A DNA stretch of 64,000 nt, taken from NCBI GenBank assembly GCA_031286065.1, contig JAITUZ010000017.1, forward strand, positions 1 through 64,000. Direction: 5' to 3'. The notes under the pieces were generated by a model, which was not told the DNA's origin, made no database searches, and saw only the letters and a list, made by a program, of their open reading frames with translations. Source of the stretch: Candidatus Methanimicrococcus odontotermitis. GTDB lineage: Archaea; Halobacteriota; Methanosarcinia; Methanosarcinales; Methanosarcinaceae. Made by a program: the position numbers and the translations under genes. This document shows positions 44,338 to 63,365 of this stretch, piece by piece. Within the stretch, counting starts at the first letter, position 1. Each line of letters starts with the position of its first letter.

Positions 44338-44353
44338 AAGCCAACGTCCGGAT
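44338..44353. repeat. Left attachment site (attL), displaced tRNA-Cys end
   Basis: AAGCCAACGTCCGGAT is identical to 63366-63381, which forms the 3' end of tRNA-Cys. It is the tRNA fragment displaced by integration of the 19-kb element. Confidence 0.9.
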
Positions 44354-44563
44354 GTGGACTGATTTGCATCAGCAAAATCGCCACGAGACGGACGACATAA
44401 AACTCATTTTGTAATTCGTCATTAGTCGCCGTTTCCGGACAAGGCTTAATTTAATACCACTTTTGTTTTCATAATCAGCCCTCGATAAAACACTGATTTG
44501 AAAACAATCCGGTTACCAGCCGGGGTATATTATTAAATACTGTTTATTGTAATATATAATTTT
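44354..44563. other. Left-end non-coding region of the element
   Basis: No gene is seen here. There are TATA-like sequences at about 44523-44535 and 44546-44555 that can serve the NUDIX gene, and several short inverted repeats (gtgg...ccac within 44354-44385). Confidence 0.4.
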
Positions 44564-45376
44564 ATGCCATTTCTAATTCCGGTTTATTATTACAGACAAT
44601 GGAGATATGCGCAGCATTTAATTGAAACCGGCTATTGTAAGCGTGTAAAATGCATATATTTAAAAGGAAGAAGATGCGGTCATGGTCACCGACCACTTAT
44701 CATGGAAGAAGAACACGTATTTACATGCTTAAGTGTGAAAAAATCAAATCCTGCAAAAAAAGCCATTCGCCGAGTAAAAAGATTAATAAGGAATCTAAAA
44801 TCAGATATTGTTTATGGAACAAAAATCCGAAATCGCGGAACAGTAATCCTGAAAAACGAGCACGGAATAATTGTAGTACAGGAACCAAACGGAAGCTGGA
44901 GTTTGCCTGGCGGCGGGATAAACATAAATGAATCAGATATGGAATGCGCATTGAGGGAATTAAGAGAAGAAACCACAGTAAAAGGAAAAAATTCAAATTA
45001 TCAATTTGAAATTAAAGGTCGAATTCACAGAGATCGACATGGGAAACGTTATATAAATTTATATAAAATATTTGAAATCACCGAATATGAAAACAAACCG
45101 AGGCCATCAAACGAAATTAGAAAAATCGGATATTGGAGATCGGGAAAATACATGAGATTAACATCTACAACTAAAAAAATCCTGGATATATATCAAAGAC
45201 CATGGAGAACACCGCAATTCAGACAATATTGCAAGTCGGTAAACTGTGCGTATGGAGATGAGAACGGTTGCGGAATAGATAGACCGGAGTTAAATCCGCC
45301 GGATGAACCGTCAACATGTTTTGAAGATGGCGTTCCATGTTGTTATGATATGCGTTCATTGGATGACGGCCATTAA
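44564..45376 (+). CDS. NUDIX hydrolase with cysteine-rich flanks
   Basis: The 270-residue protein has a central NUDIX domain (about 90-205). The Nudix box is seen as GGININESDMECAL followed by RELREETT, which fits G-x5-E-x7-REUxEE. It should hydrolyse a nucleoside diphosphate linked to another group. The N-terminal part has spaced cysteines (YCKRVKCIY, RRCGHGH, FTCL), and the C-terminal part has another set (YCKSVNCAYGDENGCG, STCF, VPCCYD), which may bind metal. This flank arrangement is unusual for a house-cleaning NUDIX enzyme. As the first gene inside attL it is probably cargo of the element. Confidence 0.85.
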   Translation: MPFLIPVYYYRQWRYAQHLIETGYCKRVKCIYLKGRRCGHGHRPLIMEEEHVFTCLSVKKSNPAKKAIRRVKRLIRNLKSDIVYGTKIRNRGTVILKNEHGIIVVQEPNGSWSLPGGGININESDMECALRELREETTVKGKNSNYQFEIKGRIHRDRHGKRYINLYKIFEITEYENKPRPSNEIRKIGYWRSGKYMRLTSTTKKILDIYQRPWRTPQFRQYCKSVNCAYGDENGCGIDRPELNPPDEPSTCFEDGVPCCYDMRSLDDGH

Positions 45377-45399
45377 TTAACAACAATTCGGCAGAAAAT

Positions 45400-45411
45400 A
45401 CTTATATAAAG
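45400..45411 (+). promoter_or_regulatory. TATA box of the replication gene operon
   Basis: The sequence acttatataaag lies about 75 bases upstream of the first gene of the 45481-48753 group. Confidence 0.5.
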
Positions 45412-45480
45412 ATGAAAATAATAACGTATTGAAATGAATTGGCTTTACCAGAGCCAAAACATCTTTAAAACCAAACCTCG

Positions 45481-45852
45481 ATGAATATGACACAAACAAC
45501 AATTAGCGGAGCTCCCGCTGTAGATTTTACAGGTAAAGTCATTGAATACATTGCATATGGCGCAGGCGCCAAAGGCAAAAGAGACGGACGATACGAAATT
45601 CTGAAAATGTCCGGAATTTCAAGCACACATTTTTTAGTACTCGGCCAAAATATCAATACAAAACTGTATGTTGTTTTTGAAGCCGACCTTTACTCATTTA
45701 ATACTGCTCCCACCCTTGTTTATCCGTCGTATTTAATCAAAAGTCCAGAATTTGCGGAACAAAATTATAATAACCGTCTAAACAAAATCAATCGGCTGAA
45801 AACTCCGATGGATGAAGTCCGAAATATTGACAGATTGCCGGCGGTGGTCTGA
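45481..45852 (+). CDS. Uncharacterised 123-residue element protein
   Basis: I do not recognise this protein. It starts MNMTQTTISGAPAVDF, is beta-rich with IEYIAYGAGAKGKRDGRYEI and LYVVFEADLYSF, and ends in a basic helical tail (NRLNKINRLKTPMDE). The pattern could fit a small OB-fold or single-strand DNA-binding type protein, but no signature is clear. The next gene starts immediately after its TGA, and the third gene of the series is the replication ATPase, so a role in replication is plausible. Confidence 0.75.
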   Translation: MNMTQTTISGAPAVDFTGKVIEYIAYGAGAKGKRDGRYEILKMSGISSTHFLVLGQNINTKLYVVFEADLYSFNTAPTLVYPSYLIKSPEFAEQNYNNRLNKINRLKTPMDEVRNIDRLPAVV

Positions 45853-46281
45853 ATGGTTCAGGATTTGGCAACATTGTGCCGGGATCTCGGAACAATTTTG
45901 GAAATGAAGGAATCCGTGTCTCTTTTAGAAATAGTCGCATTGACGGAGGAAAAGCAGCTTCGAATTAAGGCTGTCATAGATTTACTCATGCTGAAGGACA
46001 AAAGCATTGAAGTGAAAGGAACGACATACACCTACAAACCGATAAAACAAGATGCCATCGTTTTGTATCTTGTATTCACAACGAACTCAATCGTTGACTC
46101 ATTTTATTTTGACCCGGAAGAACCATCTCCGACTGCGGCAGAAATTGCTGAAAAGAATTTTGTGGCCGCTTTTCGGGATGAAAATGAAGCCATGGGTTTT
46201 GCGCACAACAATGGTTTTCAAGTGCTTAAAATTGAAGAATTTATTCCTGAAGAAGATGATGAGCGTCTGTTGGTGATATGA
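45853..46281 (+). CDS. Uncharacterised 142-residue element protein
   Basis: I do not recognise this acidic protein. It is helical in the first half (LATLCRDLGTILEMKES and EEKQLRIKAVIDLLML) and mixed afterwards, with an acidic C terminus (IPEEDDERLLVI). The start ATG touches the stop of the previous gene, and the following gene starts right after its TGA. The three are therefore one translation unit leading to the replication ATPase. Confidence 0.75.
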   Translation: MVQDLATLCRDLGTILEMKESVSLLEIVALTEEKQLRIKAVIDLLMLKDKSIEVKGTTYTYKPIKQDAIVLYLVFTTNSIVDSFYFDPEEPSPTAAEIAEKNFVAAFRDENEAMGFAHNNGFQVLKIEEFIPEEDDERLLVI

Positions 46282-48753
46282 ATGACCATCAGACCAAATG
46301 GGAAAAAAGTTTCAACTCCGAATCCGGATGAAATTTTCAAAGACATGAATCCGAGAGTTTACACTAAAGAGGATTTAAAAAAACACGAAGACCGATTGAA
46401 AGAAATTTCAAAAGCCGAAACTGGATGGAAATTAGAAATCGTTGCTGTCCAGGAACAAACCATTGCTACATGTATCGGCTTTGAAACGCCACACAAAGGG
46501 CTTTAGGATATTCTTGTTGAATTTGAATATAATAAGAAAAAGAAAGGAAAAGCAAAATACACATTCAATTTCACAATTAACGAATTTAATGACAAACTGC
46601 AGCATGTTGAGAAAAATCTCAAAATCAATACCATAAACCCGATTGCAAAAGATGAAAAGTTTGAAAATGAACTGAAGACTTTTTTAACCGAAGCAGGCTA
46701 CAGCAAAAAGTATCTTCACATAAAAATGGCAACAGGAAGTATTCTGAGCATCTGGCAAGAATGGGAACCAAAAGAATTTCAAGCCTTATTTCCAGAAATG
46801 GTTTATAAATCTCCAAAATTAGATTACGCACCGGAAGATTGGATTTACCAAGACTGGATTATTGATTATCCGTATGATATCGATACGAGGAATGGCAAGC
46901 TTTACCGTTACATCATCAACAAAACAGAAGATGGCGATGACATCAAAGTACTGATTTCGGATTTGGTACTGGTTACAGCTGAGTACCAAGATATGGCCAA
47001 GGAAAATGAAATTTATTTCCGGTACCTAATCAGAAATGGCAAACGGAAAGTACAGACATTCATGATGTCAGCCGGAAAAATTTCAGACAAGGAATTCATG
47101 GATGACATTCGCCGCTGCATCATTGTGATTTATGGAGAGGAGAAGCATTTCAACCGATTTTTAACACTGTTCGCAATGCGGAACCGTGATGAAAAGAAAT
47201 TAGCCCATTATTACTTCAGTTCCCGGACAGGTTGGATCACACTTGAAGGAAAACAGTATTTCTTACTCGGAAGCCGTTTTTTTGACATAGAAGATAATTA
47301 TATGAGTCCGGCAGTTCCGACCGATGAGCTGGCCGGTCATGAGGAGTTTTTTGCCGGCATTGCAGATTCCGGAAACTATAGCGAATGGATTAAAGAATGG
47401 ATACCGGCTATTCAAGCTGAGGATCCGACCGGCTGTCAAATCTTCCTTGAGAACACAAACCTTTGGTTTACCGTTTATGCTCTTTCCGCTTCATTTTTAA
47501 TGAATATGTTTCCGGGAATGGAAAATACATTAATCATTAATAGCGGCACCACGTCTCGCGGAAAATCTACGATCGCAAAAATTGCGGCCAGCATGTTCGG
47601 AGACCCGAAAAAATTCATCACGCTCGGCAGCGGAACAGAAAACGGAATTTGGAATGCCTGGCTGAAATGGAATTATTTGCCGTCAATCATGGACGAATTC
47701 ACAAATACGAAACAAGAAATCAAAAACAAGATTCCGTATTGGTTCAGTGACGGGAAGGAAAAAGCGCGCTTAAATAAAGACGCGACAGCCAAAAGAACGA
47801 ATGAATTCCGTAAAATCGGCTATATTTCACTTGAGAATGATTTTGTGAATCAAGTCATGCGGTCAGGAGTCGATGCCCGTGTGATTCCCATTTATGACGG
47901 TTTGAATCTTCCGGACACTGAAGATGAAGAAGTCAACACCGCACGCGCAACACTCATTGATGATCTGGCCAGAGTGAAATCTCACAAATATTTCGGTTTT
48001 TACAAATATGAACTGCTCAAAACCATCAGCGAGGTGGGAACAGACAGAATAAATGAGATTTATGAAAGTGTTTCAAAAACATATACGACAACAAATGACA
48101 CTTTAACAGCGCGTCTGGGAGCAAGTTTCGCTCTGTTTCATGTTTCGGGGATCCTCGTTGAAATGACAAATGAACGGCTGCAGATCCGCAACCAAACTTC
48201 ATCTGAAGAACTTCATGAAATGGTTGAAACTCGCTGCAAAGAAATTCTGGATCAAGTCGTTCAAAATATCGGTGATCATGATTGGCAGGTTGTTCTGGCT
48301 GATGTCTTGGCCCGTGCGGACAACTCTGAAACTCGCACGCGCTGGCTGACGGACGAGCAATTGATGTACCCGTACCGCCCCGATGATGAATGTTCAATCC
48401 GATATCCGGACAAAATTGAGGCCTGGTTTTGCAATGATGGCATGATTGAATATGTCGATGTGGCACCGGATATTCTCAAAACGGTCTGCATATCAACAGT
48501 GGGAAAACCGTCAATGAATAATGTTTTAAAAGAATGGACGGACAAAAAAATAATCAAACCATTAAGAGATGACCAAAAAACAGTCATGCAACGCCATTAT
48601 GATGTTCAAGGCGGCAAAAAAGTCAGGACACCGGTTTATCGGATTAACCTTCAGAAAGCCAAAGAATTGACCGGATATGATCTGATGTATCGCCGGCGGG
48701 AATTGCTGGATGAAATTCAAAGTGATTTAGAAGATTTTGATTCTACAAATTGA
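46282..48753 (+). CDS. DUF927-like replication ATPase with in-frame UAG (probable Pyl75)
   Basis: Read through the TAG at 46504-46506, the frame gives an 823-residue protein. Codons 1-74 begin MTIRPNGKKV, the amber is codon 75, and 73 further codons stay open (DILVEFEYNKKKKGKAKYTF and onwards) before the long C-terminal part. Walker A is SGTTSRGKST near residues 423-431. It is followed by SIMDEFTN as the Walker B-like strand and by GKEKARLN, in the order known from DUF927 and D5-like helicases. It probably unwinds or loads at the element's origin. It is the third gene of a tight operon. A start at the ATG at 46726 is possible but has no ribosome site. UAG as pyrrolysine is inferred from context. 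Confidence 0.8.
46504..46506 (+). other. In-frame TAG, candidate pyrrolysine codon in the replication ATPase
   Basis: The TAG lies at codon 75 of the 46282-48753 frame. The frame is open for 74 codons before it and 748 after it. Confidence 0.65.
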
Positions 48754-48836
48754 GGGATTAAAAGTGACAATAACAGTCGAATAAGGAATCTAATGTTATA
48801 AATTAAGGAATTTAAGGAACAGAGATATTTTGTTTT

Positions 48837-49874
48837 TCACTCCTGTTCCGATAAATTATACTTTGATTTAACTCTTTTTTCAATATCCTCAATCGAAGGA
48901 AGAGTATCTTCAAACTCTTTTGGCAAGTATTCTGTTAATTTATATTCACTTACACCAATGGGTTTTGTCATATCTTTCAAGGCATATTCAGCAATTGTTT
49001 TATTTTTGTTCCGGCATAAAATAAGCCCGATAGAAGGATTATCTTTTTCCTTTTTTAAAAGTTCATCTACGGCTGAGAGATAAAAATTCAACTTGCCGGC
49101 ATATTCCGGTTTAAACATCCCTGCTTTTAACTCTATCACAAAATAACAATGCAGATTCGTATTATAAAAAAGTAAATCAATATAAAAGTCTTCACCGCCG
49201 ACTTCTAAATGATACTGATTTCCAAGAAAAGCAAAACCCGTTCCAAGTTCCAAAAGCAATTTGGAAATATTTGAAACCATCTCATTTTCAATGTCACGTT
49301 CAACCATCTGATCTTTTGCCTCAATAAAATCAAACCAATATGGGTCTTTGAGTGTTTGAACAGCAAGTTCGCTTTGTGCCATATCAAGCCGTGCCGGATA
49401 ATTCGTTGTTTTAGATGCTGAAATTTGGCGCTGGTATAAGTGGGATTCGAGTTGATGTTCTAATACTCCGACTGACCAGTTGTTTTCCGCAGTTTTTAAA
49501 ATATACCACTCCATTTGCCCTCGATCTTTCACTTTATCCAAAATGGACTTATTATGCGTCCACGGAATTTGTGCAGTCACTGACTGCACAAATTCAAGGT
49601 CATTATATGTTGACGCAAATTTTTGCATGTATTTTAAATTCCTCACGGAATAACCTGTAACATTTGGAAAGTCAGCTTTAATGTCCCGCGACAGATTTTC
49701 CACAAATTTATTGCCCCACCGCTTATTTTCAAGTATGATATTTCCGATATTCCAATATAGAGTAAGCAATTCCCGATTCGCGCCGACAACAGCCCTATAC
49801 TGTGCGGTTCTAATTTGAGACTTGATCTCCTCTAAAATACTAAAATATTCGGAATTATTTATCAGCATATGCAT
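48837..49874 (-). CDS. DUF1016/YhcG-family PD-(D/E)xK nuclease
   Basis: The 345-residue protein matches the YhcG family. The N-terminal helical DUF1016_N domain (about 10-155) has LLTLYWNIGNIILE and FPNVTGYSVRNLKYMQKFA. The C-terminal nuclease domain shows EDFYIDLLFYNTNLHCYFVIELKAG, which is the D...ExK catalytic core written as two motifs, and LILCRNKNKTIAEYAL. Members often travel with restriction-modification systems and mobile elements. It is transcribed opposite to the replication operon and converges with it. A role in element defence or recombination is inference. Confidence 0.92.
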   Translation of the reverse strand: MHMLINNSEYFSILEEIKSQIRTAQYRAVVGANRELLTLYWNIGNIILENKRWGNKFVENLSRDIKADFPNVTGYSVRNLKYMQKFASTYNDLEFVQSVTAQIPWTHNKSILDKVKDRGQMEWYILKTAENNWSVGVLEHQLESHLYQRQISASKTTNYPARLDMAQSELAVQTLKDPYWFDFIEAKDQMVERDIENEMVSNISKLLLELGTGFAFLGNQYHLEVGGEDFYIDLLFYNTNLHCYFVIELKAGMFKPEYAGKLNFYLSAVDELLKKEKDNPSIGLILCRNKNKTIAEYALKDMTKPIGVSEYKLTEYLPKEFEDTLPSIEDIEKRVKSKYNLSEQE

Positions 49875-49948
49875 TCTCCAGATATTTTCAACGCATCATT
49901 CATATAAAAACCAAATTGGAATAATTGAAGAATTTATAATCTGAAGAG

Positions 49949-50275
49949 TTAAATTATCTCTTCATCACAATACTCTTTTTCTTCTAATTTTGCCCAGCTA
50001 CGGACAGCCTTGTAAAGTTTCCAAACGGAAAGAAAAAGTAAAATAGGTCCAGCAATCGGACTAAGCATCCGAATGGAAAAACTGGAAAGGTCTTCTAATG
50101 CCAGTTCCATGAGGGTGCTAAACTCCCAATCCCAATAAATGATGGCGAGAAGCACTAAGATATACCAAAACAATAAAATTAAAGATAAAAAAAACAAAGA
50201 AACATAAATCAAAATTGTTCTTTTTATTTTCTTTTTTTCATTGATGACTTCCTGATCAGTGTCTGCAATTGTCAT
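49949..50275 (-). CDS. Small two-span membrane protein of the element
   Basis: The 108-residue protein has two strong hydrophobic segments (about 22-47 and 70-90) with a Lys-rich N-terminal part (NEKKKIKRT) and an acidic C-terminal tail (LEEKEYCDEEII). I do not recognise a family. It lies between the nuclease gene and the putative origin. It may be a superinfection-exclusion or envelope protein, but nothing in the sequence fixes this. Confidence 0.65.
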   Translation of the reverse strand: MTIADTDQEVINEKKKIKRTILIYVSLFFLSLILLFWYILVLLAIIYWDWEFSTLMELALEDLSSFSIRMLSPIAGPILLFLSVWKLYKAVRSWAKLEEKEYCDEEII

Positions 50276-50419
50276 AAGTATAAAAATACCGGTACAGATA
50301 TAAAATGGTTATGTGAAAATAAAGGAAACTGCAATCATTTTTCAAAAAGTGTTATTTTATAATAAAATAATACTTTGAATTCACACTTGATAAAAAACTT
50401 ACAAAAATTGAAAAAAATA

Positions 50420-50721
50420 ACCATGACAACCATGACAACTTAAAAAATAGGCATATTGCTATTGATAGTTCACTGATGCTTTTTTGATTTACTGTTATTG
50501 TTTTTTTTGTCATGGTTGCATACCATGACAATACCATGACAACCATGACAGAACCATGACAACACCACGACAAAAACAAAGTTGTCATGGTTGTCATGGT
50601 AAAAAATAATGTTGTCATGGTTCCAAACCATGACAAAAAAACAAGCATTAGAAGGATGAAAAGAGAGCGGCAAAAAACAGAATCTGACGGAATCATTTAA
50701 TGTTGTCATGGTTGTCATGGT
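50420..50721. repeat. Iteron cluster, putative replication origin of the element
   Basis: Thirteen copies of the heptamer CCATGAC (or its complement GTCATGG) occur within about 300 bases. ACCATGACAACCATGACAAC is at 50420-50439, and its exact reverse complement is at 50581-50600 and again at 50702-50721. The region has no credible gene and is followed by about 280 bases of very AT-rich sequence. This is the layout of iteron-type origins. Confidence 0.7.
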
Positions 50722-51025
50722 GAAAAACACATCATTTTTATTTTTTTGAAAAAACTGAAAAAAGCTGAAAAACCGATTTGTGTTACTCCGGAAAAATAAA
50801 AAGACGAACGAATGAGACTTTTAAAAAATAGAGATTCAGAAAAAAGACAAAAAAATTCTGCATTTTATTCAAAAAAAAGACGAAAATTTGATAAAAAATT
50901 GATTTTTTATTATTACAAAAAATAACCGATTGCGTTTTTAAAAATTTTATTCAGGATTTTATTTCGGAAAGAATAAAAAAGAGATGAGGAGACACGAAAG
51001 TATAAAACAGGAACAGGAGAGCATA
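50722..51025. other. AT-rich non-coding region next to the iterons
   Basis: This is A/T-dominated sequence without an open frame of interest. It contains runs such as aaaaaaaagacg and attttttattattac. It could be the DNA-unwinding part of the origin. No gene is seen. Confidence 0.45.
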
Positions 51026-51535
51026 TTATAAAAAATAAACCAAAACTGACAATAAAATATTTCCAAACGTGCAGCTGATCAAAGCGGCCGGTAAAAATCC
51101 GACAAGTCCGGGCGCCGGGCGGTCAGGCTGAAGAAACCGGAACAAAAGCAAGATAGGAACTGACAGAATCATAAAATTGCAAACAATGTCAAGAGCCGGA
51201 AGTGTCCCGATTCCGGGCAAAATCAAACCATCCGGATAAACCGGCAAAAATAGAATTAACCCGGAAAAGATTTTGACATCAGCCGCGCCGATTGAACCGA
51301 ACATGACAGCACCAGCAGAAAAAACATAAGATAGGACAAAAAGAATGATACCGATTATTATTTCGTGAAATGTCACCGATTTTAAAAACAAAAAATCAAT
51401 AAAAATAAAACAAGATACGCAAATCAAAAAAACGCTTAAAAGCAACTTATTTGGAACGCGCCGGGTCTTAATATCCAGCGGCATGAAAATAAAAGCAATC
51501 GACATCATAAATAAAACTGAAGCAATTGTGAACAT
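51026..51535 (-). CDS. A24-family prepilin/preflagellin peptidase-like protein
   Basis: The 169-residue membrane protein has about five hydrophobic segments. The first conserved aspartate lies in PLDIKTRRVPNKLL, the N-terminal signature of A24 peptidases, and the second in GSIGAADVKIFSG, corresponding to the GxGD region. Such enzymes cut class III signal peptides of archaeal pilins and archaellins. Their presence in a mobile element suggests it encodes its own pilin-like structural protein. The GxGD motif appears as GAAD, so activity is likely but not certain. It overlaps or nearly touches the ribbon-helix-helix gene upstream. Confidence 0.8.
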   Translation of the reverse strand: MFTIASVLFMMSIAFIFMPLDIKTRRVPNKLLLSVFLICVSCFIFIDFLFLKSVTFHEIIIGIILFVLSYVFSAGAVMFGSIGAADVKIFSGLILFLPVYPDGLILPGIGTLPALDIVCNFMILSVPILLLFRFLQPDRPAPGLVGFLPAALISCTFGNILLSVLVYFL

Positions 51536-51541
51536 GATTTA

Positions 51542-51907
51542 TTACTCCCGGATTCGGACTTCTTTTAAAAACGCTTCAAGGGTTTCCCTCAAAAGGCAGC
51601 TCATTGAACAGCCGATCTTCTCGGCATCACGCTTCAGATCATCCCGCATCTCGGGCGAAACCTGCACCAAGAGAACTTTCCATTTTTTGGCCGAAATTTG
51701 ATCCTTTTGATTGCCGGTGTCGGTCGAAAAATCATGGTCATAATTTTGAAGTTCTTGATGTACCCGATTCCAAACCAGCCTGCAGACGGCTGCCCGGCTC
51801 ATGTTCATCAACTTTGCTTTTCGGTCCAGCTCCGCGGCAGTTGAGCGGCTGATCATGATTCTTATCTGGACTTTTTTGTTCGTTTCAGGCGCCGGTGTTC
51901 CGGCCAA
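51542..51907 (-). CDS. Tandem ribbon-helix-helix DNA-binding protein
   Basis: The 121-residue protein contains two RHH (CopG/Arc-like) units. The first is VQIRIMISRSTAAELDRKA with LMNMSRAAVCRLV. The second is KVLLVQVSPEMRDDLKRDA with EKIGCSMSCLLRETL. The short beta strand at the start of each unit makes the DNA contact. A two-unit chain can bind as a pseudo-dimer. It is transcribed away from the structural operon, and the gap between them holds ATTGTA/TACAAT palindromes, so autorepression and control of the late genes are likely. The prepilin peptidase gene follows 6 bases later. Confidence 0.85.
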   Translation of the reverse strand: MAGTPAPETNKKVQIRIMISRSTAAELDRKAKLMNMSRAAVCRLVWNRVHQELQNYDHDFSTDTGNQKDQISAKKWKVLLVQVSPEMRDDLKRDAEKIGCSMSCLLRETLEAFLKEVRIRE

Positions 51908-51967
51908 AATGACTGCGGTTTCCGTTTGAAATTCCCCCGGGAAAAGCGATTCAAAAATCTCATTGTC

Positions 51968-52078
51968 TCAAAATTATACAATGCGGTTTAAATAGGAAAT
52001 ATCAGCATTATTGTAATATAATGAATTTTGAAGATTAACATTATACAATATTGTATAAATGCATTCGTTATTGTATTA
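51968..52078. promoter_or_regulatory. Operator-like palindrome cluster between divergent element operons
   Basis: TTATACAATATTGTATAA at 52041-52058 is a perfect 18-bp palindrome. Related half sites ttatacaat (about 51973), ttattgtaa (about 52006) and ttattgtat (about 52068) surround it. It is the likely target of the ribbon-helix-helix protein and overlaps the promoters for both directions. Confidence 0.65.
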
Positions 52079-52112
52079 ATATTGTTTGCCTGAAAGGGCA
52101 GGAGTGATACAA

Positions 52113-52559
52113 ATGACCGTATTAGTCAACAAATCAACAATATTGACGGAAATTTATTGTTCAATTCTCATGATTTGGACAACAGTTCAAAGGAAGGTAA
52201 CAAATAAACTGAAACAGACGATGTCAAACTGGAGAACAGTCATGAGCATCGCTGTTGCGAACGCTTATTCACCGATTAACGGCGCAAAGACCATTTACAA
52301 AACATTTTATGCGGAAGATGCCGTTGAGCGAGGATCTCTAACCGATGCTGTTGTCGGCCTATTCGTTTTTGGTATGGTTTTGGTTGCGGCATACATCGGT
52401 ATCGGCATGGTTGAGCCCTATTTACCAACAAGTGATGGAACGCTTGATGCCGATGCACAGAAGACGCTTGACACCATCCGCGCAGCTCTCGGCATTGCCG
52501 GCGTCTGTATGATTTTCATTTCACTTGGTTTATTGATTGCGACATTGCGCAGCTGGTAA
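52113..52559 (+). CDS. Pilin-like or coat-like small membrane protein
   Basis: The 148-residue protein has a basic N-terminal part with a hydrophobic stretch (ILTEIYCSILMIWTTV), then DAVERGSLTDAVVGLFVFGM. Here an Arg-Gly pair precedes a long hydrophobic helix, loosely like a class III signal sequence of archaeal pilins. A second membrane helix lies at the C terminus (about 120-146). The prepilin-peptidase-like gene nearby makes a processed pilin or coat subunit plausible. The start at 52113 follows an aggag site. It opens the long structural operon behind the RHH-controlled promoter. The family is not recognised. Confidence 0.6.
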   Translation: MTVLVNKSTILTEIYCSILMIWTTVQRKVTNKLKQTMSNWRTVMSIAVANAYSPINGAKTIYKTFYAEDAVERGSLTDAVVGLFVFGMVLVAAYIGIGMVEPYLPTSDGTLDADAQKTLDTIRAALGIAGVCMIFISLGLLIATLRSW

Positions 52560-52575
52560 TATCAAGAAGGAAGAG

Positions 52576-52869
52576 ATGGCGATGGATGGAATTCTTTATT
52601 CTTTATTTTCGGCAGTCGCGATTCTCGGCGTCTGGATCGGCATAATTGAATTCCGGCTTTCCCGGTCAACTGACGCGGTCATTTTTCCCGGGACATCTCT
52701 CCTTTTAACAATTTTATTGATGATTTCATCAAAATTTGTAGAAACCGAACTGTTCAGTCCGGCTGAAAGTAATTTCATATTTGCTTTTTGGCTCTGCATG
52801 TTCATTTTAAGCTTTGGATTAATGTTTGTCATGGCTGCCGGAACATTCCGGTCTGAAGGAGTTAAATAA
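52576..52869 (+). CDS. Small membrane protein, three spans
   Basis: The protein of about 97 residues begins MAMDGILYSLFSAVAILG. It has three hydrophobic segments (about 5-25, 37-55 and 70-92) linked by short loops. An aggaag ribosome site precedes the ATG at 52576; an ATG two codons later is an alternative. Its last stop base overlaps the next start (taatg). No known family is visible. It is one of a series of small membrane proteins in the structural operon. Confidence 0.7.
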   Translation: MAMDGILYSLFSAVAILGVWIGIIEFRLSRSTDAVIFPGTSLLLTILLMISSKFVETELFSPAESNFIFAFWLCMFILSFGLMFVMAAGTFRSEGVK

Positions 52870-53336
52870 TGTCTGAAATGGGAAATCAATCGGATTACGC
52901 CGGACAAATTACACCGGAAGATATTGTGAAATTGAGGCAAGCCGGCCTCGGAGCCGAAATTTCGAAGTTGTTTCTGGAAGATGAATTTGTCGAAGATATG
53001 ATCTCTCCGGAAGTCAAACCTTATTTTGATGCAATCCGAAAAGTCGGCATCGGACAGTATGATAAAAAAGATGTCGAGAAGCTGTTGAAAAAAATTGACT
53101 CGATGAAAACGACATTCATCATGTCATCAATGGAATCAGAATACACATGGCAGCATGAGCGTGAATTTACGATGCTGAGTGTCCTCGCGATTAAAAACAC
53201 AAGCATGGGAATTGACGGCACATTCCTGAAACGTGCATTCGGCAGCATTCAGGAAACGAATTTGGTTCAGACCATGAACAGTCCGCAGCAAGCGCGGCCC
53301 GGATTAATCGCTTCATTTTTCAGTAAAAAACGATAA
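52869..53336 (+). CDS. Uncharacterised soluble 155-residue protein of the structural operon
   Basis: The protein is soluble, helical and mostly acidic, with a basic C terminus (SFFSKKR). Segments such as EDIVKLRQAGLGAEISKLFL and KKDVEKLLKKIDSMK are amphipathic helices. It starts on an ATG that overlaps the stop of the previous gene. I do not recognise it. The order between membrane-protein genes suggests a structural or assembly role. Confidence 0.75.
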   Translation: MSEMGNQSDYAGQITPEDIVKLRQAGLGAEISKLFLEDEFVEDMISPEVKPYFDAIRKVGIGQYDKKDVEKLLKKIDSMKTTFIMSSMESEYTWQHEREFTMLSVLAIKNTSMGIDGTFLKRAFGSIQETNLVQTMNSPQQARPGLIASFFSKKR

Positions 53337-53361
53337 TTGAAAAACCTCCGGACGGATTAAA

Positions 53362-54384
53362 ATGGATTCATTGTGGATTTGGACAACGTTTTTCTTTGGA
53401 ATGGCATGCGGACTGTTGTTTATTTTTTCCATCGTTTATATAAAATGGAGCGGCCCTTACAGCTGGGTTATTTTTAAGGCAAGGCTGAACGGATACCGCG
53501 TCAGTTGGTTTATTGATAATCATGGTGAAGTCCATCCGGAAGCCGTAAAAGGAGAATTCGGCTATCATGCGGCTGATGCAGGAATTTTCCTCCCGGATCC
53601 GGACAATCCGGTTTCAACCGACCGTGGAAGACACAAAGGCGGTGTTTTTGACACAAACATGGCCGCCGGAATCAATTTTATTTTGATGAAAGCCGCAAAA
53701 AAACTTTCAAAAACAAATACTAACGGGCACACAGAAACAGTCAGCGGAATAAATCAAACGATTATTGAGTCGAATGAACTGGCGGAAGTCAAAGCCGGAG
53801 AGTTCGAAGAAGAAATGTTAGAGGAGCTGGCTGATGCCGGCGGACAAGCTGACGCAATGATTGTTTCGGCGAGAGAAAAAGCGTTGGATGAGCTGAAAAG
53901 TATCAGAGAAGAATTTTATAACTCAGAGGAAGTTACCGATGAGGATTTAAAAAAGAGACTTGAAGACGCTTTTGAAATTATTTATGCTTCAGTGACCGAA
54001 GAATTCACTGAGGAGTCATCGAGTGAAAAAATTGCCGAGAAATTAACGCCGGTTATTGAAAAATATACAAACAAAGTCGAAAAGCTTAAAAAAGAGTTTG
54101 GAGACCGGCTTCTTTTGAGCGACACTGAAATTAAAGCGCTCCGTCATTATTATGTATTGAACCAGCCGCAATACGTTGAGAAAAAGCTTCAGGCATCGGT
54201 CAATGAAGCTGTTTCGCGCGAAAAGAACAATATGAAGACATTCATGATGATTGCCGCGTTTGTCATTGTTGCATTTCTTGCCGTCGTTTTGGCAATTTAC
54301 TTACTCGGCAACGACCCGACTGTAATCATTCAAAACGGCTCGGATTTTATAACGGCCAATAATTCAACAACTCTTCCGATGTGA
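53362..54384 (+). CDS. Membrane protein with N- and C-terminal anchors and coiled coil
   Basis: The 340-residue protein begins with a membrane segment (about 5-28, FFFGMACGLLFIFSIVYI) and a beta-rich domain (SGPYSWVIFKARLNGYRVSW, then FIDNHGEVHPEAVKG). A long Glu/Lys-rich helical region (about 140-285) follows, then a second membrane segment (about 295-317) and a short Thr/Asn-rich outer tail. The overall build resembles virion membrane proteins or components of secretion machines. The family is unknown. It lies in the middle of the structural operon, directly before the first of the two neighbouring TAG-containing genes. Confidence 0.75.
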   Translation: MDSLWIWTTFFFGMACGLLFIFSIVYIKWSGPYSWVIFKARLNGYRVSWFIDNHGEVHPEAVKGEFGYHAADAGIFLPDPDNPVSTDRGRHKGGVFDTNMAAGINFILMKAAKKLSKTNTNGHTETVSGINQTIIESNELAEVKAGEFEEEMLEELADAGGQADAMIVSAREKALDELKSIREEFYNSEEVTDEDLKKRLEDAFEIIYASVTEEFTEESSSEKIAEKLTPVIEKYTNKVEKLKKEFGDRLLLSDTEIKALRHYYVLNQPQYVEKKLQASVNEAVSREKNNMKTFMMIAAFVIVAFLAVVLAIYLLGNDPTVIIQNGSDFITANNSTTLPM

Positions 54385-54389
54385 TAGAC

Positions 54390-54869
54390 ATGTCAGATAG
54401 TTTATTCTCTCAAAACCCGCATGGCGGTCTTTATTCCTCAGTCGGTCAGAAAGGGCTGTACCGGCAGGAAATATCAGTTGATGTTTTAATGTTTCTGGAT
54501 GCGAAAAAGAGTTTTTATTCTGATTTAAAAATAAAACATCGTTTTCCGGATTGTATTGAATCATACGAAGACCTGTGCAGTGAGATGTACGGAATTGTTG
54601 AAAAAGTGAAACCGATCCTGCTTGTCAAAAATAACAAAAAGGATGTTGATCCGCTTGGAATTGCCCTCGTTGATGAACTCGAACAATTCTTTGCATAGAA
54701 GGATTCGGGATTTGATCATAAAAAAATTGAATTAGCCGCAACAAATGCGAATTTGATTATTGAAATGGCGGATTCACTACTGAAAATGCTTTACAGTAAA
54801 GAGATTTACGATCCATCGATCATGTTTAAAATGGACAGTCCGGGAACTGCATACAGGAGGTCTATGTGA
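54390..54869 (+). CDS. Uncharacterised 159-residue protein with in-frame UAG (probable Pyl103)
   Basis: From the ATG at 54390 the frame runs 102 codons to a TAG at 54696-54698. It continues 56 codons (KDSGFDHKKIELAATNANLI, then EMADSLLKMLYSKEIYD and onwards) to a TGA that overlaps the next ATG (tgatg). The overlap and the protein-like composition after the TAG support readthrough. A GTG at 54381 that overlaps the preceding stop is an alternative start. The protein is soluble and helical and I do not recognise it. Loss of the tail would remove about one third of the protein. Confidence 0.75.
54696..54698 (+). other. In-frame TAG, candidate pyrrolysine codon
   Basis: The TAG is codon 103 of the 54390-54869 frame. 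The frame continues for 56 codons to the natural stop/start overlap. Confidence 0.65.
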
Positions 54870-55783
54870 TGCCGAGCGTATTCTTGCGTGACGCTCTTGT
54901 GAAATAGAGAAAGGAATGCGAAGTAAAAGAACGGGAAGATGCCGAGGGAACGAAAAAACCTGTTCTTCGTTTGCTTCAAAAAAATTTGGAAGGGATTGTC
55001 CGCGTTTGCAAAGAAAATCGGCTCGATTGGCCGATTAACGTCGTCGGTGCGGAAGGTTCGGGAAAGTCAACGCTTGCCGCACATATTTCTCAAAAGCTGG
55101 CCGAGATGACCGGGCAAGAGTTGGATTTGGCAGAATCGATGATTTATTCGTTTGACGAGCGTGATCGCCATGGAGCTCCGCTTAAAAACTCATTGGTCGG
55201 ATTCGTTGACAAGTATCAATCAACGGAATTTAAAATATTATGGTATGATGAAGCTGTCACTGTTCTTTTTTCGGACGAACACGCAACGAGAGAATCAAAA
55301 GAGGCGAAAAAACTGTTTATCACGAAGCGTGACATGTGCCATTTTGATATTTTAGTATCACCGTCACCGTTTCACATCATCAAGGATATTCGGAGCCGCC
55401 GCGTTAAAACAATGATTTATTGCTTCATCATGGAAGATCCGGAAACAAAACGCTTCAAGCACAAATATGCCTGGTACTCGGCCGATAAAATCGTTTCAAT
55501 GTCATACGGTTCGAATCAGAAAAAAGCTGAAGTTCTGTTCCGCCGGCCGAAACAATTTATAAACGCGTTTCCGCCGGATTTTATTGAAGATTTCCCGAAA
55601 ATGACGCAAGAATTCGAAGAAAAATATCTTTTGACAAAGCGCACATTCATGAAAACGTATATTGACTCACTCGTCGGCGGCGAAAAAACAGCTGCTGATT
55701 TAGTGCTTCCTGAGAATTTCAGCTTTATACCGGTCTTTGACAAGCTGGTCGGCAAAACTGCCGGCGGCGAGGAGGCCGTCTGA
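54869..55783 (+). CDS. Zot/packaging-type P-loop ATPase with in-frame UAG (probable Pyl13)
   Basis: The frame starts at the ATG at 54869, which has an aggagg ribosome site about 9 bases upstream and overlaps the previous stop. It gives MPSVFLRDALVK, a TAG as codon 13, then RKECEVKEREDAEGTKK and the rest of a 304-residue ATPase. Walker A is GAEGSGKST at 60-68 and Walker B is KILWYDEAV at about 122-130, followed by KKLFITKRDMCHFDILVS as in Zot/HerA-like assembly ATPases. It may drive DNA packaging or virion assembly at the membrane. No ATG or ribosome site exists between the TAG and the P-loop; only a TTG at 54971 could start a shorter form. Confidence 0.82.
54905..54907 (+). other. In-frame TAG at codon 13 of the packaging-type ATPase
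   Basis: The TAG lies 12 codons after a well-placed ATG and ribosome site, and the frame behind it is open for 291 codons. It could act as a gate on expression of the ATPase. Confidence 0.7.
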
Positions 55784-58569
55784 TGGCATACGGAAAAGCA
55801 ACTGTTGTGGATTCGGGAAACTCATCGGGATCGCTTACCAATACCGTCCGCGAAGCCGCCGGAAACGCTGTACGAAATGCGCAGAATTCCGGCGCAAGCA
55901 AAGCCGATGTAATTAAAGCACGAGATGCGGCGAAAGAAAGTGTTTATGCCGGTGCTGTTCAAGCCATCAATACCGGTGGCAGTTATAAAGGGATGAGTGC
56001 ACAGCAGCTGCATAATGAGCTTTACGGCGGACTGGAACAAACGGCGACTCAACACGGAACACCGATTGCACTGGTTCAGAGCCGCAACCATTTGCAGAAC
56101 ATGCAAAATGCCGGCTTCTATGACGCTGAATGGAATCCCACAAACAAAGCATTGCAAGGGCAGATACAGAAGAACCAAAGCCAACCGCCAATAACTGTAA
56201 TAGATTTTAAGCCGGCGGCCGTCCAACCAAAAGAACTCAGCATCAGAGAGCGCATTAATTACGAATCGATGAGACTTAAAGAATCAAAGATTCCAATAAT
56301 AAGAGGAGCTGCGGCTTACCTTCCGAATTATTATGATCCGGAAGTTATGGAGAAAGCGAAAGAAAACAACATTGATTTTAATGAGGTTGCTTCGTCAGTT
56401 TCTTCCTTGATGGGCCCGATCGGTATTCTGAATATTTCAGAAAGTGATAAAAATCCGTTTCGAACTGACAAAAACAAATTGGTGGATGCGACTTTAGAGG
56501 GTCTTTTTTATGGATTTACCGGTGAAGATGTTTCCGGAAAAAGTGAAATCGTCCAAGCGGCCGGCAATCGCGGAACAAACTGGATTGATGCGAAGACAGG
56601 TGCTTTGCATGAGTGGTCTATGCGAAATTTGGACGGGCGATTCTATGAGATTGGATCATTTGTTCGCGGCATGGTTCCGGATTCAATTGTCGGTGTCGGC
56701 ACATTGATTAGTGAAGGGACAAAGACAATTACAGCCGGCTTCCGGGAAGCGAAAAAATCAGGAGCAAACCTGACAGGAATCACCCGTGGTCAAGCGATGT
56801 CAACGTCTTTTGCCGGCATGCTCGGGTTCGGTATCGGCACAATTGCCGGCGGAACAGTAAGAGGAGCAATAGACGACCCGATTGCCTTTGCCGGCGGATT
56901 GATTGGAACCGGCGGTGCAGGCGGTATTGGGAAGTTGGGCATGGGAGTTGGGAAATTCAGATTGAAAGCTTTCAAACAAGCCGCAGGTAAAATTGATGTT
57001 TCACTCAAAGATTTGGGCGTTGATCCTAAAGTGATTAAGATGGGAGGAGATGTTTACAGACTTGAGGGGAAAGCAGCGTTTCCGGATGCTTATCCTGTTA
57101 AGACTGGAATTAAAATGCATGAAGGAGTTTCGATGCTGGAAAATGCAAAAAATCTCTACCCGGGGGAGAAATCCGGAAGCACCGCGATTATTCACTCAAG
57201 TCCAAAAAACAGAGGAGATATTTACAGTCCGCATGTCGGAAAGTCTTCGGAACCAGGCATGTTTGGAGCAGAATCACCTTCAATCCGATTTATGAAGATT
57301 CCATATTTTAAAAATGCAAAATTGGTCGGATTTTCAAATCCTTTCAGCCCATCTAAGTTAAATGAACTCAGTCCAAGAATTATGTTTATTGAGGGGAAAG
57401 GAATTAGATCACCAGAAGTCACATCAGGGGTTAAAACAAATAAGTTTTTACTAAATGATGCAGATGCTGGTTATTTCTGGACAACTCATAAGATGAGACA
57501 AAGAATTGAGAGCGGAAAGCTTGTAGAAGTAGAAGCTGTCGTTTCTCCAAAAACCACAATTTCGACCTACGACAATAAACCGTATTCTGATGCAACTCTT
57601 TACAGAATCGAATCAAAATACCGAACAACAGTTAAACAGCCGATTGATTTCCCCGGAATTAAAATGGATGTTGATTTAAAAGTGCCTGTTGAAAAATATA
57701 TTATGGTCACGGCTGATGATATGGCCTTAGTTCCAGTTTCGGCGCCGGCAAAAAAATCCAAGTTTTTTTCTCCAGATTCGCATGGAAAAGACGGTTCTTT
57801 GACTTATCCGGTCGGAACGAATATGAATCTTCACACGGGACCGAAACCGATTAGAACGGTCACCGAAATTTCAAAAAAAAACGGCAGCATCAAAGAAATG
57901 TTTACAGCCCGCCGAACAGCTTCAGCTGATGTTGTCAATAGGCATAAAGCCGGCATGGCTTCAAAAAATTATGATGCGAAAAAATTGTTTGAATCCGCCA
58001 AATCTAAAAAGACCGCGTCTGCCGAATCTAAACCGATTACATCTGCCGCGTCTCCAACCGCTGCGCGGATCAGCGAGCTGACGGACGGGAAAAATGCCGG
58101 CGATCTGATAAAAAAAACATCAAACACACAAAGCATCGAGGACTTGATTCGAAAAAAAGCACCACCGAAAACAAAAAAGTCGGACTCCGGAAGCAGCCGC
58201 AAATCACCAAAACAGCCGGCATATCCTCTTGTCGATTTAACATACAGCCCTTTGGGTGTCTCACGCGGCGCCAAATCCAAATCAAAGCCCTCTAATTCTC
58301 GCGGCGGTTACTACAGCCCGACCTCGGGGTATGGATACGGCAGCAGTAAAAGTTCATCTCCCGGTTATTCCGGATATGGAGGCGGCAAAAGTTCATCATC
58401 AAAAACGGCACCGTCTAAAGCAACAACTCGACCGATTGTACATAAACAGACATCAAAGAAATTAAAGAAAGAAGAACCAATCAGTCCCGCTAAACGGACA
58501 AAGAAAACCACGAAAAAATCAACAAAGAAAGAATTTAGGGTTAACCCGCTCAGGGGGCTGAAAATCTAA
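55783..58569 (+). CDS. Large 928-residue structural/assembly protein of the element
   Basis: The protein starts MAYGKATVVDSGNSSGSL and has an N-terminal helical part. A Gly/Ala-rich hydrophobic stretch (about 345-390, with IGTGGAGGIGKLGMGVG) may insert in membranes. A mixed central domain (about 400-650) follows, then a long basic, Ser/Pro/Gly/Tyr-rich tail (about 730-928) with SSKSSSPGYSGYGGGKSS and many Lys pairs. Its ATG overlaps the stop of the ATPase gene. The disordered basic tail suggests DNA or membrane-surface binding inside a particle. I recognise no family. Confidence 0.75.
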   Translation: MAYGKATVVDSGNSSGSLTNTVREAAGNAVRNAQNSGASKADVIKARDAAKESVYAGAVQAINTGGSYKGMSAQQLHNELYGGLEQTATQHGTPIALVQSRNHLQNMQNAGFYDAEWNPTNKALQGQIQKNQSQPPITVIDFKPAAVQPKELSIRERINYESMRLKESKIPIIRGAAAYLPNYYDPEVMEKAKENNIDFNEVASSVSSLMGPIGILNISESDKNPFRTDKNKLVDATLEGLFYGFTGEDVSGKSEIVQAAGNRGTNWIDAKTGALHEWSMRNLDGRFYEIGSFVRGMVPDSIVGVGTLISEGTKTITAGFREAKKSGANLTGITRGQAMSTSFAGMLGFGIGTIAGGTVRGAIDDPIAFAGGLIGTGGAGGIGKLGMGVGKFRLKAFKQAAGKIDVSLKDLGVDPKVIKMGGDVYRLEGKAAFPDAYPVKTGIKMHEGVSMLENAKNLYPGEKSGSTAIIHSSPKNRGDIYSPHVGKSSEPGMFGAESPSIRFMKIPYFKNAKLVGFSNPFSPSKLNELSPRIMFIEGKGIRSPEVTSGVKTNKFLLNDADAGYFWTTHKMRQRIESGKLVEVEAVVSPKTTISTYDNKPYSDATLYRIESKYRTTVKQPIDFPGIKMDVDLKVPVEKYIMVTADDMALVPVSAPAKKSKFFSPDSHGKDGSLTYPVGTNMNLHTGPKPIRTVTEISKKNGSIKEMFTARRTASADVVNRHKAGMASKNYDAKKLFESAKSKKTASAESKPITSAASPTAARISELTDGKNAGDLIKKTSNTQSIEDLIRKKAPPKTKKSDSGSSRKSPKQPAYPLVDLTYSPLGVSRGAKSKSKPSNSRGGYYSPTSGYGYGSSKSSSPGYSGYGGGKSSSSKTAPSKATTRPIVHKQTSKKLKKEEPISPAKRTKKTTKKSTKKEFRVNPLRGLKI

Positions 58570-58805
58570 TGGTCAGTTATCAGCTCCTCGTCTTCGGAAT
58601 CGGTCTTGTTGTATTCGGAATAGCGTTTACTTTCATTAATGACCAGTTATATGACATGACGGCAGCCGGTCTGATCGGATATACCGGGATTAATGAAACA
58701 TTCCTATTCGGCCAATATTGGCTGGATTTTTTATGGGGACTCTTCCCTTCATTGGTTTTTGTCACAGGTGGTCTGTGGTGTTCAGCAAGGGCAATGAAAG
58801 GGTGA
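58569..58805 (+). CDS. Small two-span membrane protein
   Basis: The 78-residue protein has two hydrophobic segments (about 5-24 and 50-70) and a short basic C terminus. Its ATG overlaps the stop of the large protein gene, and the spike-like gene starts 6 bases after its end. It may be a partner or membrane chaperone of the following surface protein. No family is recognised. Confidence 0.7.
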   Translation: MVSYQLLVFGIGLVVFGIAFTFINDQLYDMTAAGLIGYTGINETFLFGQYWLDFLWGLFPSLVFVTGGLWCSARAMKG

Positions 58806-58811
58806 TTCAAA

Positions 58812-61220
58812 ATGAAATTAATAAAAACACTCCTCACCCTTTTATTTTTATTCATATTGATGCAGACAGCGAACGCCGAAACGGGTTTGTATGAATTCCC
58901 TGTCGGAGTCGGCGACAACACGCTAGACTTAGGAAACGCATACAACGGCTCATATGTCAATTCCATAACCGGAACTGTTTATGAATCTTCTTTGCATTAT
59001 CAGGAAGTAACAATTAATGTTCCGGACACTGATAAGATAGGAACAAAAAGAACGCTGAAGCTGGATGTTCTGTTTACTGACGGAATGAAATTGGATTTTT
59101 CAGATGTTTATTTCACGGATCGGAATTTTAATATTATTCCGATATATCGTGACATGAATTCGACTGTCAATGGGAGCAATGCTACTTTTTATTTGTATTT
59201 CGACAGCATCGCGGCTCAAAACGATTTATACATGTGCTGGGGAGTCGGGTCGAATCCAAAACAAGATTCGTATGTTTTTTTGGCAAATTTTGGAAATGGG
59301 GAGACATATACCACCAGTGTCAATTTCAACGTGTATCGTCCGGAGAGTTTATACAATATTTCGACATCGCCTGCGTCTACTTTTAATTATACGAATGCTG
59401 AAGTTATTTTCTCGATGAGTGGTTCCGGCTCGAATCATAATACAGCGCCATGGCTAAGACTGAAAATAAATTCATCAAATAGTTCTGCTCTCACTAATTC
59501 TGTCGGTACATGGGTTGAGGGCGGCCGATTGTTTTTAATAACGTTTCCAGGTTGGATGCAGACAGAAATTCGTCCAATTTCCACAACTATCATCAAACTT
59601 GAATCTTCTCTGATAAATTCGACTTTAGTTGGAAATGCAAATAATATAACATCAATCTGGGATCTTACAAATAATGACTGGACTAATGTTTTTAGTTTTA
59701 ATCGCGGGTCCGGTTCCATAACCATTTATTCATTTAAAACATATAATTCTACAAATTTTACCGCAAGTTTCGGAGAAATTAATAAACTCGTAGCTTCGGA
59801 ACATCCGATTACAATCTCTTATCCAGCTTCCGATTTTTCGACATTGGATTTTGAATCAGAGTGGGTCGGAAATTTAGAATTTAGAATAAATTATGACCCC
59901 CATGCCGTTTTGTCAACGCCGAACGATGCAACATTCCAAGAAACCGCCATTCTGCAATTTGAAATAAACCCGCAAAATCTGCAGCTGCCATATCAGATCG
60001 CTCTTGACGACACTTTTTTCAGCATCGTCAATTCCGGATCATCGTCCGGAATCATTTCAGTAAAGTTGCCGGCAAACAATTATTACTGGAGAGTGATGCA
60101 GCCGGACGGAAATTATTCGGATATTCGGACGTTTACGGTCACAGAACCGGGACCGATTCAGGGGTCATTAAATTTTACAATAAGAAATGAACTGACAAAC
60201 ACATCTGTGTCGGCAACCGTTACGATTTCAAACAACACAACAACTTTACAAAAAACAGGTTCTACTGTTACATTTAACAGTTCCGAAGTCACGGCCGGCA
60301 ATTACTCGGTTCGTGTCAATTCAACAAACAATTCAACGCGGTTTTATGAAGTCGTTAGTCCGGGAGATTATACTCTTTATATTTTACCGATAACGGTGAA
60401 CACATCCGTTGTTTATTTTTCGTTGATTGACAACACAAATCAGTTTCAATACAATTCGACCAAACTCGAAATCATAAAACAGACAACGAACGGTTCAATT
60501 GTTGTCACAAGCAATTATTTTGATGCGTCCGGCTTTGTTGTCACAACTCTTAATCAATTCGATAATTATATTCTTAAAGTCGTTTCGGATTCAGGAACTG
60601 AAAGAATTTTGGGAAACTACATTCAGGCCGGTCAAACATCAATCCAACTTGTCATTTCAGAAATTATCTTGAAGGATCCTGATGTTAACATACACGGAGG
60701 ATTCACTTACAATCTGAAGAAATCTCTGGAAGGAATTAAACTTGAGTGGCGGAATCCGAACAGTGATGCATTAACTGAGCCATTTACGTTCAAAATCTTA
60801 AAGGATGGGGAGCAGGTGATGAACATTACATCGACCGCACCTTTCGGCCTAATTCATTATATTGATACAGGCGGCGGCGAACTTGATCCGAATGCGACAT
60901 ATGAGATCATCTTTGAGGCCGAAACAACCGGCGGAAAAATTAGGGTTCACGAATTCTACAAAATCAGCGGTGAAATAACCGGAATTAACTTTGACATTAT
61001 CCCGGCACCAGTGAGAATCATTGTGACAATTGGACTGCTCGTTCTTGTGGCCAGCCAATTCAACACAACAAACGCTAAATTTGCAGCGGTTGTCGTATCA
61101 GTTATTGCATTATTCTTATCGTTTGTTTCATTCTTTCCGGTCGGAAATGCAATATTGGTTTTCGTTTGGCTGCTGTTCATTGCAGTCGTTGCACTGAAGA
61201 CGAGCAGGAGGTTCGGATAA
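58812..61220 (+). CDS. Spike-like exported surface protein, 802 residues
   Basis: The protein begins with a signal peptide (MKLIKTLLTLLFLFILMQTA, cleavage after about residue 22) and then a long beta-rich outer part full of Asn-Ser/Thr sequons. Residues about 55-160 resemble a DUF2341-like beta sandwich. About 610-710 looks like a fibronectin type III domain (GIKLEWRNPNSDALTEPFTF, then FKILKDGE). Three hydrophobic segments at the C terminus (about 735-798) anchor it. This is the build of receptor-binding spikes on archaeal vesicle-like viruses, or of an S-layer-penetrating adhesin. The next gene starts right after its stop. Confidence 0.75.
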   Translation: MKLIKTLLTLLFLFILMQTANAETGLYEFPVGVGDNTLDLGNAYNGSYVNSITGTVYESSLHYQEVTINVPDTDKIGTKRTLKLDVLFTDGMKLDFSDVYFTDRNFNIIPIYRDMNSTVNGSNATFYLYFDSIAAQNDLYMCWGVGSNPKQDSYVFLANFGNGETYTTSVNFNVYRPESLYNISTSPASTFNYTNAEVIFSMSGSGSNHNTAPWLRLKINSSNSSALTNSVGTWVEGGRLFLITFPGWMQTEIRPISTTIIKLESSLINSTLVGNANNITSIWDLTNNDWTNVFSFNRGSGSITIYSFKTYNSTNFTASFGEINKLVASEHPITISYPASDFSTLDFESEWVGNLEFRINYDPHAVLSTPNDATFQETAILQFEINPQNLQLPYQIALDDTFFSIVNSGSSSGIISVKLPANNYYWRVMQPDGNYSDIRTFTVTEPGPIQGSLNFTIRNELTNTSVSATVTISNNTTTLQKTGSTVTFNSSEVTAGNYSVRVNSTNNSTRFYEVVSPGDYTLYILPITVNTSVVYFSLIDNTNQFQYNSTKLEIIKQTTNGSIVVTSNYFDASGFVVTTLNQFDNYILKVVSDSGTERILGNYIQAGQTSIQLVISEIILKDPDVNIHGGFTYNLKKSLEGIKLEWRNPNSDALTEPFTFKILKDGEQVMNITSTAPFGLIHYIDTGGGELDPNATYEIIFEAETTGGKIRVHEFYKISGEITGINFDIIPAPVRIIVTIGLLVLVASQFNTTNAKFAAVVVSVIALFLSFVSFFPVGNAILVFVWLLFIAVVALKTSRRFG

Positions 61221-61589
61221 ATGGAAACTTATAAAATTACAGTTTTTTTGATAATTTTGAATTATACAATCTTCGCATTTGCGGCACTTGGTGTTTTCCC
61301 GATAGAGTATCCGTATATCAGCGAATATATCGACCCGTCAACATTTTCCGGAAACGTTCCCGAAAATATCAGTTATGACAGTATCAGCTACGGCAATTAT
61401 ATTTTTGGCGATTTCATTCGAGCGCTTGTCATGATTGCCGCACTGCTGGTCATTGCACCGTTTGCGCTTGCGTTTTTATTAAACTCATTGGGCATTCCGA
61501 CATTGATTTCAACACTTTTGATCATCATGCTGTCAATTATTTATATCAAAGATTTGGCTGAGTTCATTGGAAACCGCATTATAAAATAA
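61221..61589 (+). CDS. Membrane protein of the structural operon (122 residues)
   Basis: It has three hydrophobic segments (about 5-24, 65-86, 90-110) and a polar loop rich in Ser, Tyr and Pro between the first two (EYPYISEYIDPSTFSGNVPE). The ATG is directly behind the stop of the spike-like gene. The family is unknown. It is the first of three similar small membrane proteins in a row. Confidence 0.7.
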   Translation: METYKITVFLIILNYTIFAFAALGVFPIEYPYISEYIDPSTFSGNVPENISYDSISYGNYIFGDFIRALVMIAALLVIAPFALAFLLNSLGIPTLISTLLIIMLSIIYIKDLAEFIGNRIIK

Positions 61590-61604
61590 CAGGCGGCGAT
61601 TAAA

Positions 61605-62194: not shown

Positions 62195-62288
62195 CAAGTA
62201 CCGGTTTTGACAATAAACTTTTTTTATTTTTTCCAAATGTATGGGATGTGGCGGGCTACCGCCGCATGAACAATTCGGAGATATAAAA

Positions 62289-63233: not shown

Positions 63234-63270
63234 CAAAATCATTTTGTTAAAAAACTGCAAAAAAATAAGA

Positions 63271-63316: not shown

Positions 63317-63365
63317 CAATGGTTTTGTGGGAACCGCTGGCAACCGTTTTTATGGTACATGAATC

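Follow-up and report, generated by a model that had tools for sequence, protein, structure and literature searches.

Within the window, i.e. the whole 64,000-nucleotide stretch of DNA analysed, the gene at 46282-48753 is very probably translated as a single 823-residue helicase with pyrrolysine at residue 75, where an in-frame UAG interrupts the reading frame. One protein of this length is strongly supported because the host has the complete pyrrolysine cassette pylTSBCD, uses TAG only scarcely as a stop and reads TAG as sense in a CobN-like gene, and because codons 76-148 are coding-like, the only Shine-Dalgarno-like site is at 46282 and no start codon occurs between the TAG and 46726. The parts of the gene are as follows.

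46282-48753, plus strand: complete gene for a predicted 823-residue DUF927/Cch-like helicase with UAG at codon 75 (open except for one TAG; Pfam, PHROG and PDB matches)
46282-46503, plus strand: N-terminal 74 codons, contiguous with the previous operon gene (ATG behind TGA 46279-46281, GGTGAT upstream)
46504-46506, plus strand: TAG, codon 75, predicted pyrrolysine (reading frame; host pylTSBCD)
46507-46725, plus strand: 73 codons from the TAG to the next ATG, coding-like by codon score and without a start codon
46726-48750, plus strand: 675-codon frame with the helicase core, i.e. DUF927, Walker A at about 420-429 and Walker B DE at 471-472 (family, alignment and structure matches)

From ATG 46282 to TGA 48751-48753 the sole interruption of the frame is one TAG (74+1+73+675 = 823). 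The preliminary description had placed a UAG linking a short frame to a 675-codon frame at 46500-46510; this was confirmed, the TAG lying exactly at 46504-46506, which is codon 75 counted from ATG 46282. It had also put the 74-codon frame right behind the stop of the previous gene, and ATG 46282 does abut TGA 46279-46281 with zero gap, in an operon arrangement and with a Shine-Dalgarno-like GGTGAT directly 5' of it. The first ATG of the long frame, at 46726, was correctly said to have no ribosome site: its upstream sequence contains no Shine-Dalgarno-like match, and from the TAG to 46726 there is no ATG, GTG or TTG in frame. Taken alone, the missing ribosome site is a weak argument because 25 of the 156 ATG-start genes in the genome are likewise without a Shine-Dalgarno match of at least 3 bases.

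The 73 codons between the TAG and this ATG do read as protein, as claimed. Codons 76-148 score 0.099 bits per codon, equal to codons 149-823 and inside the range of the genome's real genes, with the other two frames of the same stretch at -0.42 and -0.72. Among 249 genes of at least 150 codons from 363 kb of the genome, the open stretch ahead of the first start codon has a median of 7 codons and reaches 73 or more in three; the probability that 73 random codons would all be open is 0.039. If the gene instead made two proteins, one of 74 residues ending at the UAG and a 675-residue helicase initiated at ATG 46726, then 219 coding-like bases would be left between them without a start codon, the helicase would start at a site without ribosome-site-like sequence, and a codon that almost never terminates genes in this organism would have to act as a stop; we consider two proteins very improbable.

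Judged by its matches, the gene encodes a helicase of the DUF927 / SaPI-Rep / SCCmec-Cch-like (MCM-like) kind, with predicted DNA-unwinding activity. Pfam DUF927 (PF06048) matched at 5e-21 (76 bits versus a gathering cut-off of 22.6) and a PHROG primase/helicase at 1e-26. The closest solved structures, PDB entries 8tch and 5dgk, were matched both by the single sequence (1.5e-12 and 3.4e-4) and by a profile (1.3e-60 and 1.5e-44), and these helicases occupied ranks 1-4 in Foldseek, with global TM-scores kept modest by the low confidence of about half of the helicase model. G427 and K428 of the Walker A stretch GTTSRGKS are invariant across the aligned relatives (11/11), as are D471-E472. The SCCmec Cch1 equivalog NF047345 (SCCmet_Cch1) scored 30.7 bits against a cut-off of 700, so the protein is a relative of Cch1 and not a Cch1. 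We infer that it is the replicative helicase of the integrated element in which it lies, as are SaPI Rep and SCCmec Cch. The SaPIBov1 replication initiator-helicase (8tch) and SCCmec Cch (5dgk) share the same core and are both replication helicases of mobile elements, but they comprise 580-603 residues, whereas the present helicase has extra N-terminal residues and the in-frame UAG.

The helicase part starts near residue 185 to 195 and is preceded in relatives by some 30 to 350 residues (judged by eye); because this N-terminal length varies, the relatives neither require nor exclude residues 1-148. The scattered lengths also mean that homologues do not consistently start at the position of codon 149, as the preliminary description had said they should if its reading were wrong, and family and homologue searches revealed no separate conserved small protein that would end at codon 74. 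Two proteins would be compatible with the whole helicase core lying inside the 675-residue part, the core being complete even without the first 148 residues, and with the similarly short N-termini of several distant homologues (L042, L043, L044, L049); against this, the start positions of the homologues are inconsistent and the 74-codon frame had no relative in the searches. No homologues aligning to residues 1-148 were found, so the join of the two frames is without support from conservation.

A search with residues 1-273 of viral contigs and 392 genomes of the phylum gave no credible homologue. One match, in G095 (residues 81-190), was discarded as it sits in a P-II/ammonium-transporter region, and another, in G330 (residues 142-248), is weak, with five stops inside. 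Close relatives of the helicase were likewise absent from viral contigs, one genome-contig scan, and phage and plasmid collections; the one relative that these scans returned is a relative of a distant homologue. AlphaFold gave a pLDDT of 42 for residues 1-187 alone and, for the whole protein with 11 sequences, values below 50 for residues 38-244, the N-terminal part being mostly below 50. A related helicase copy in the same genome (L008:1320-1680, i.e. G000:C13:37739-37906) is a short decayed remnant with broken frames and is mute on the TAG because it covers only the C-terminus.

UAG is almost certainly read as pyrrolysine in the host organism. A complete cassette, pylT, pylS, pylB, pylC and pylD, is present on host contig C4, and the anticodon of the tRNA-Pyl is CUA. 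PylS (E 8e-111; 630 bits) is over its equivalog cut-off and is 85% identical to the Methanimicrococcus blatticola PylS, its best named match, which makes the host very probably a member of Methanimicrococcus or of a near relative; PylB, PylC and PylD are each over their own curated NCBIfam cut-offs. Stop usage was determined for ORFs of at least 120 codons in a 363 kb sample of the 1.75-Mb draft genome (of which the window is contig C43), where 275 ORFs ended in TAA (148), TGA (118) or TAG (9). Beyond a TAG the frame runs on for a median of 112 codons, versus 13 beyond TAA and 12 beyond TGA; most of the nine TAG-ending ORFs read on far beyond the TAG, and several of the continuations are plainly genes. 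TAG is also the rarest stop trinucleotide in the sample (2,269 versus 12,232 for TAA and 16,235 for TGA). In small samples from other genera of the family, 14 of 96 ORFs ended in TAG in g5, g7 and g8 together, versus none of 30 in g3.

Individual host genes contain TAG as a sense codon. MtmB, the classical case and our positive control, has a TAG at codon 202. In the 2,065-codon CobN-like gene L037:5276-11473, which is no methylamine methyltransferase and has no relation to methylamine use, TAG occurs at positions 246 and 1093, and a further TAG at codon 6 may lie ahead of the true start. Its orthologue in the same genus, 74-76% identical and without TAG, has Phe at 246 and Trp at 1093, and the context of the latter is well conserved (RSIIIQDVFDFG-x-NDAFTD versus RSIIVQYVFEFG-W-NDAFTD). 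The host genome thus combines a full pylTSBCD set with TAG as a rare terminator and TAG opposite sense codons in unrelated genes, which are the features of a Pyl code. A 2025 paper in Science reportedly describes such an archaeal 'Pyl code', with every TAG codon read as pyrrolysine; this always-sense rule fits the host genome. Two other host genes with an in-frame TAG were observed, one for a ClpP-like SDH-type protease (L029:13809-14738; TAG at 224, spanned by the Pfam match) and one for an uncharacterised protein of 812 codons (L028:15590-18028; mid-frame TAG at 458).

Signal-dependent (PYLIS-like) readthrough at the helicase TAG was considered and rejected. The 100 bases from this TAG folded no better than shuffled sequences (z 0.15), there was no Rfam match over threshold after it, and the MtmB site behaved likewise (z 0.34). 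The absence of RNA structure fits decoding that follows from the genetic code itself, with no role for a readthrough element nearby.

According to the mechanism that we propose, PylS would charge tRNA-Pyl(CUA) with pyrrolysine, UAG would be a sense codon for pyrrolysine throughout the host proteome, and ribosomes initiating at ATG 46282 would pass the UAG at 46504-46506 to complete 823 residues. The single 823-residue protein put forward in the preliminary description is supported, and the host pylTSBCD cassette together with the near absence of TAG stops adds a mechanism for it. The residue inserted at codon 75 would be pyrrolysine, and replication of the element would rely on the pyrrolysine supply of the host. 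The helicase resembles MtmB and the other methylamine methyltransferases in having an in-frame TAG read as pyrrolysine, but there the pyrrolysine is catalytic. At residue 75 of the helicase it is probably incidental, because it falls within the variable N-terminal region and because a relative of the host CobN-like gene has Phe and Trp where the latter has its TAGs.

A refinement of this explanation, which we regard as unlikely, would give UAG a dual meaning, with release factor and tRNA-Pyl competing to yield both a 74-residue and a full-length product and the helicase level tracking pyrrolysine (methylamine). Such competition has been proposed for pyrrolysine insertion where TAG stops are kept, and the meaning of UAG is substrate-dependent in Acetohalobium (PMC8211752; PMC4153887). 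In two of the sampled ORFs the TAG is only 4 and 6 codons ahead of the next stop, which is compatible with some termination. However, the near absence of TAG stops and the presence of TAG in the middle of host genes, the CobN-like gene among them, favour efficient, unregulated reading, and the helicase TAG is followed by no special RNA structure, as noted above.

The helicase gene lies inside an integrated element of 19.0 kb (44338-63387), for which the following features were identified.

44338-44359, plus strand: left attachment repeat (91% identical to the 3' end of tRNA-Cys)
54381-54869, plus strand: second TAG-bearing element gene (TAG 54696-54698, codon 106 from GTG 54381)
54869-55783, plus strand: third TAG-bearing element gene, a P-loop ATPase (TAG 54905-54907, codon 13; GGAGGT ahead of ATG 54869)
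62241-63233, plus strand: tyrosine recombinase (integrase) of the element (Pfam Phage_integrase 1.7e-13)
63366-63387, plus strand: right attachment repeat, inside the tRNA-Cys 3' end (tRNA prediction and repeat comparison)
63367-63438, minus strand: tRNA-Cys

Integration at tRNA-Cys is evident from the integrase, the flanking repeats and an empty site in relatives. The tyrosine recombinase adjoins the right repeat and tRNA-Cys, the attachment repeats at the two ends of the element are 22 bases long and 91% identical, and in two genomes of the same genus tRNA-Cys lies about 140 bases (L069) and about 235 bases (L070) behind the NAC gene. None of the element's genes in the window was matched at these same-genus loci. 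The element also encodes prepilin-peptidase-like, YhcG nuclease and small membrane proteins besides the P-loop ATPase, and large uncharacterised proteins of 928 and 802 residues. It looks virus-like; family searches identified no structural protein in it. Short direct repeats of the ACCATGACAACCATGACA / GTTGTCATGGT type occur at 50420-50727 of the window, where all ORFs are weak.

Besides the helicase, two further genes of the element contain an in-frame TAG. The gene at 54381-54869 ends in a TGA that overlaps the start of the P-loop ATPase. Relatives of the P-loop ATPase (42-45% identity, in genus g8 of the family) align only from about residue 21, so conservation does not cover its TAG at codon 13. 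That the element is richer in TAG-bearing genes than the host is only suggested by the counts: such genes make up 3 of 22 element genes versus about 8 of 250 host genes (p 0.05), where the host count of 8 is our own judgement of which calls are credible, and a looser host count gives p 0.11. A second P-loop ATPase copy, 35% identical, is present in the same genome (L108; G000:C34:2781-3551), pointing to another related element there, and a fragment related to the P-loop ATPase, with one TAG inside its frame, was seen in a same-genus genome (L107; G003:C63:18837-19007).

The in-frame stops could in principle reflect nonsense mutation in a decaying element (a pseudogene) or sequencing error, and the broken-framed C-terminal helicase remnant at C13:37739-37906 indicates that related elements do decay in this genome. 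All three recognised in-frame stops in the element genes are TAG, none being TAA or TGA, and this speaks against decay: by codon make-up, random nonsense mutation would produce TAG in all three cases with a probability of 0.027. This value is qualified by the way in which the frames were sought, i.e. with TAG as sense, since a gene interrupted by TAA or TGA would then appear only as a shortened frame. The conserved ATPase positions of the helicase are retained, and TAG as a sense codon is established elsewhere in the genome. We consider decay or error very improbable, and the single pyrrolysine-containing protein remains our explanation.

Pyrrolysine biosynthesis is found in almost all genomes of the intestinal clade to which the host belongs (PMC11362671), and proteome-wide pyrrolysine use has been proposed in Methanomethylophilus alvi ('Ca. 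M. alvus'; Borrel et al. 2014, PMC4153887), where TAG stops amount to 1.6% and 16 pyrrolysine proteins are predicted besides the methyltransferases (PMC4153887). The present case resembles M. alvi in having pylTSBCD, very rare TAG stops and TAG inside non-methyltransferase genes (including Cas1 in M. alvi, PMC4153887), but M. alvi belongs to another methanogen order, whereas here the genes are those of an integrated virus-like element in a Methanosarcinaceae archaeon. The principle of proteome-wide pyrrolysine use is therefore known (Borrel 2014, PMC4153887); the present case is a new member, in which such use appears to reach the core genes of a mobile element.

Standard annotation splits the helicase gene into a small protein and a helicase with an implausible start, and reading TAG as pyrrolysine restores three genes of one element, i.e. 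the helicase, the P-loop ATPase and the third gene. We tentatively suggest, as a possibility somewhat short of even, that this virus-like element has adopted the pyrrolysine code of its host, with the helicase, the P-loop ATPase and the third protein all needing UAG to mean pyrrolysine; its propagation would then be confined to pyrrolysine-decoding archaea and may follow the pyrrolysine supply. Such elements are predicted to be unable to replicate where UAG terminates translation, so that the genetic code would set the limits of the hosts open to them.
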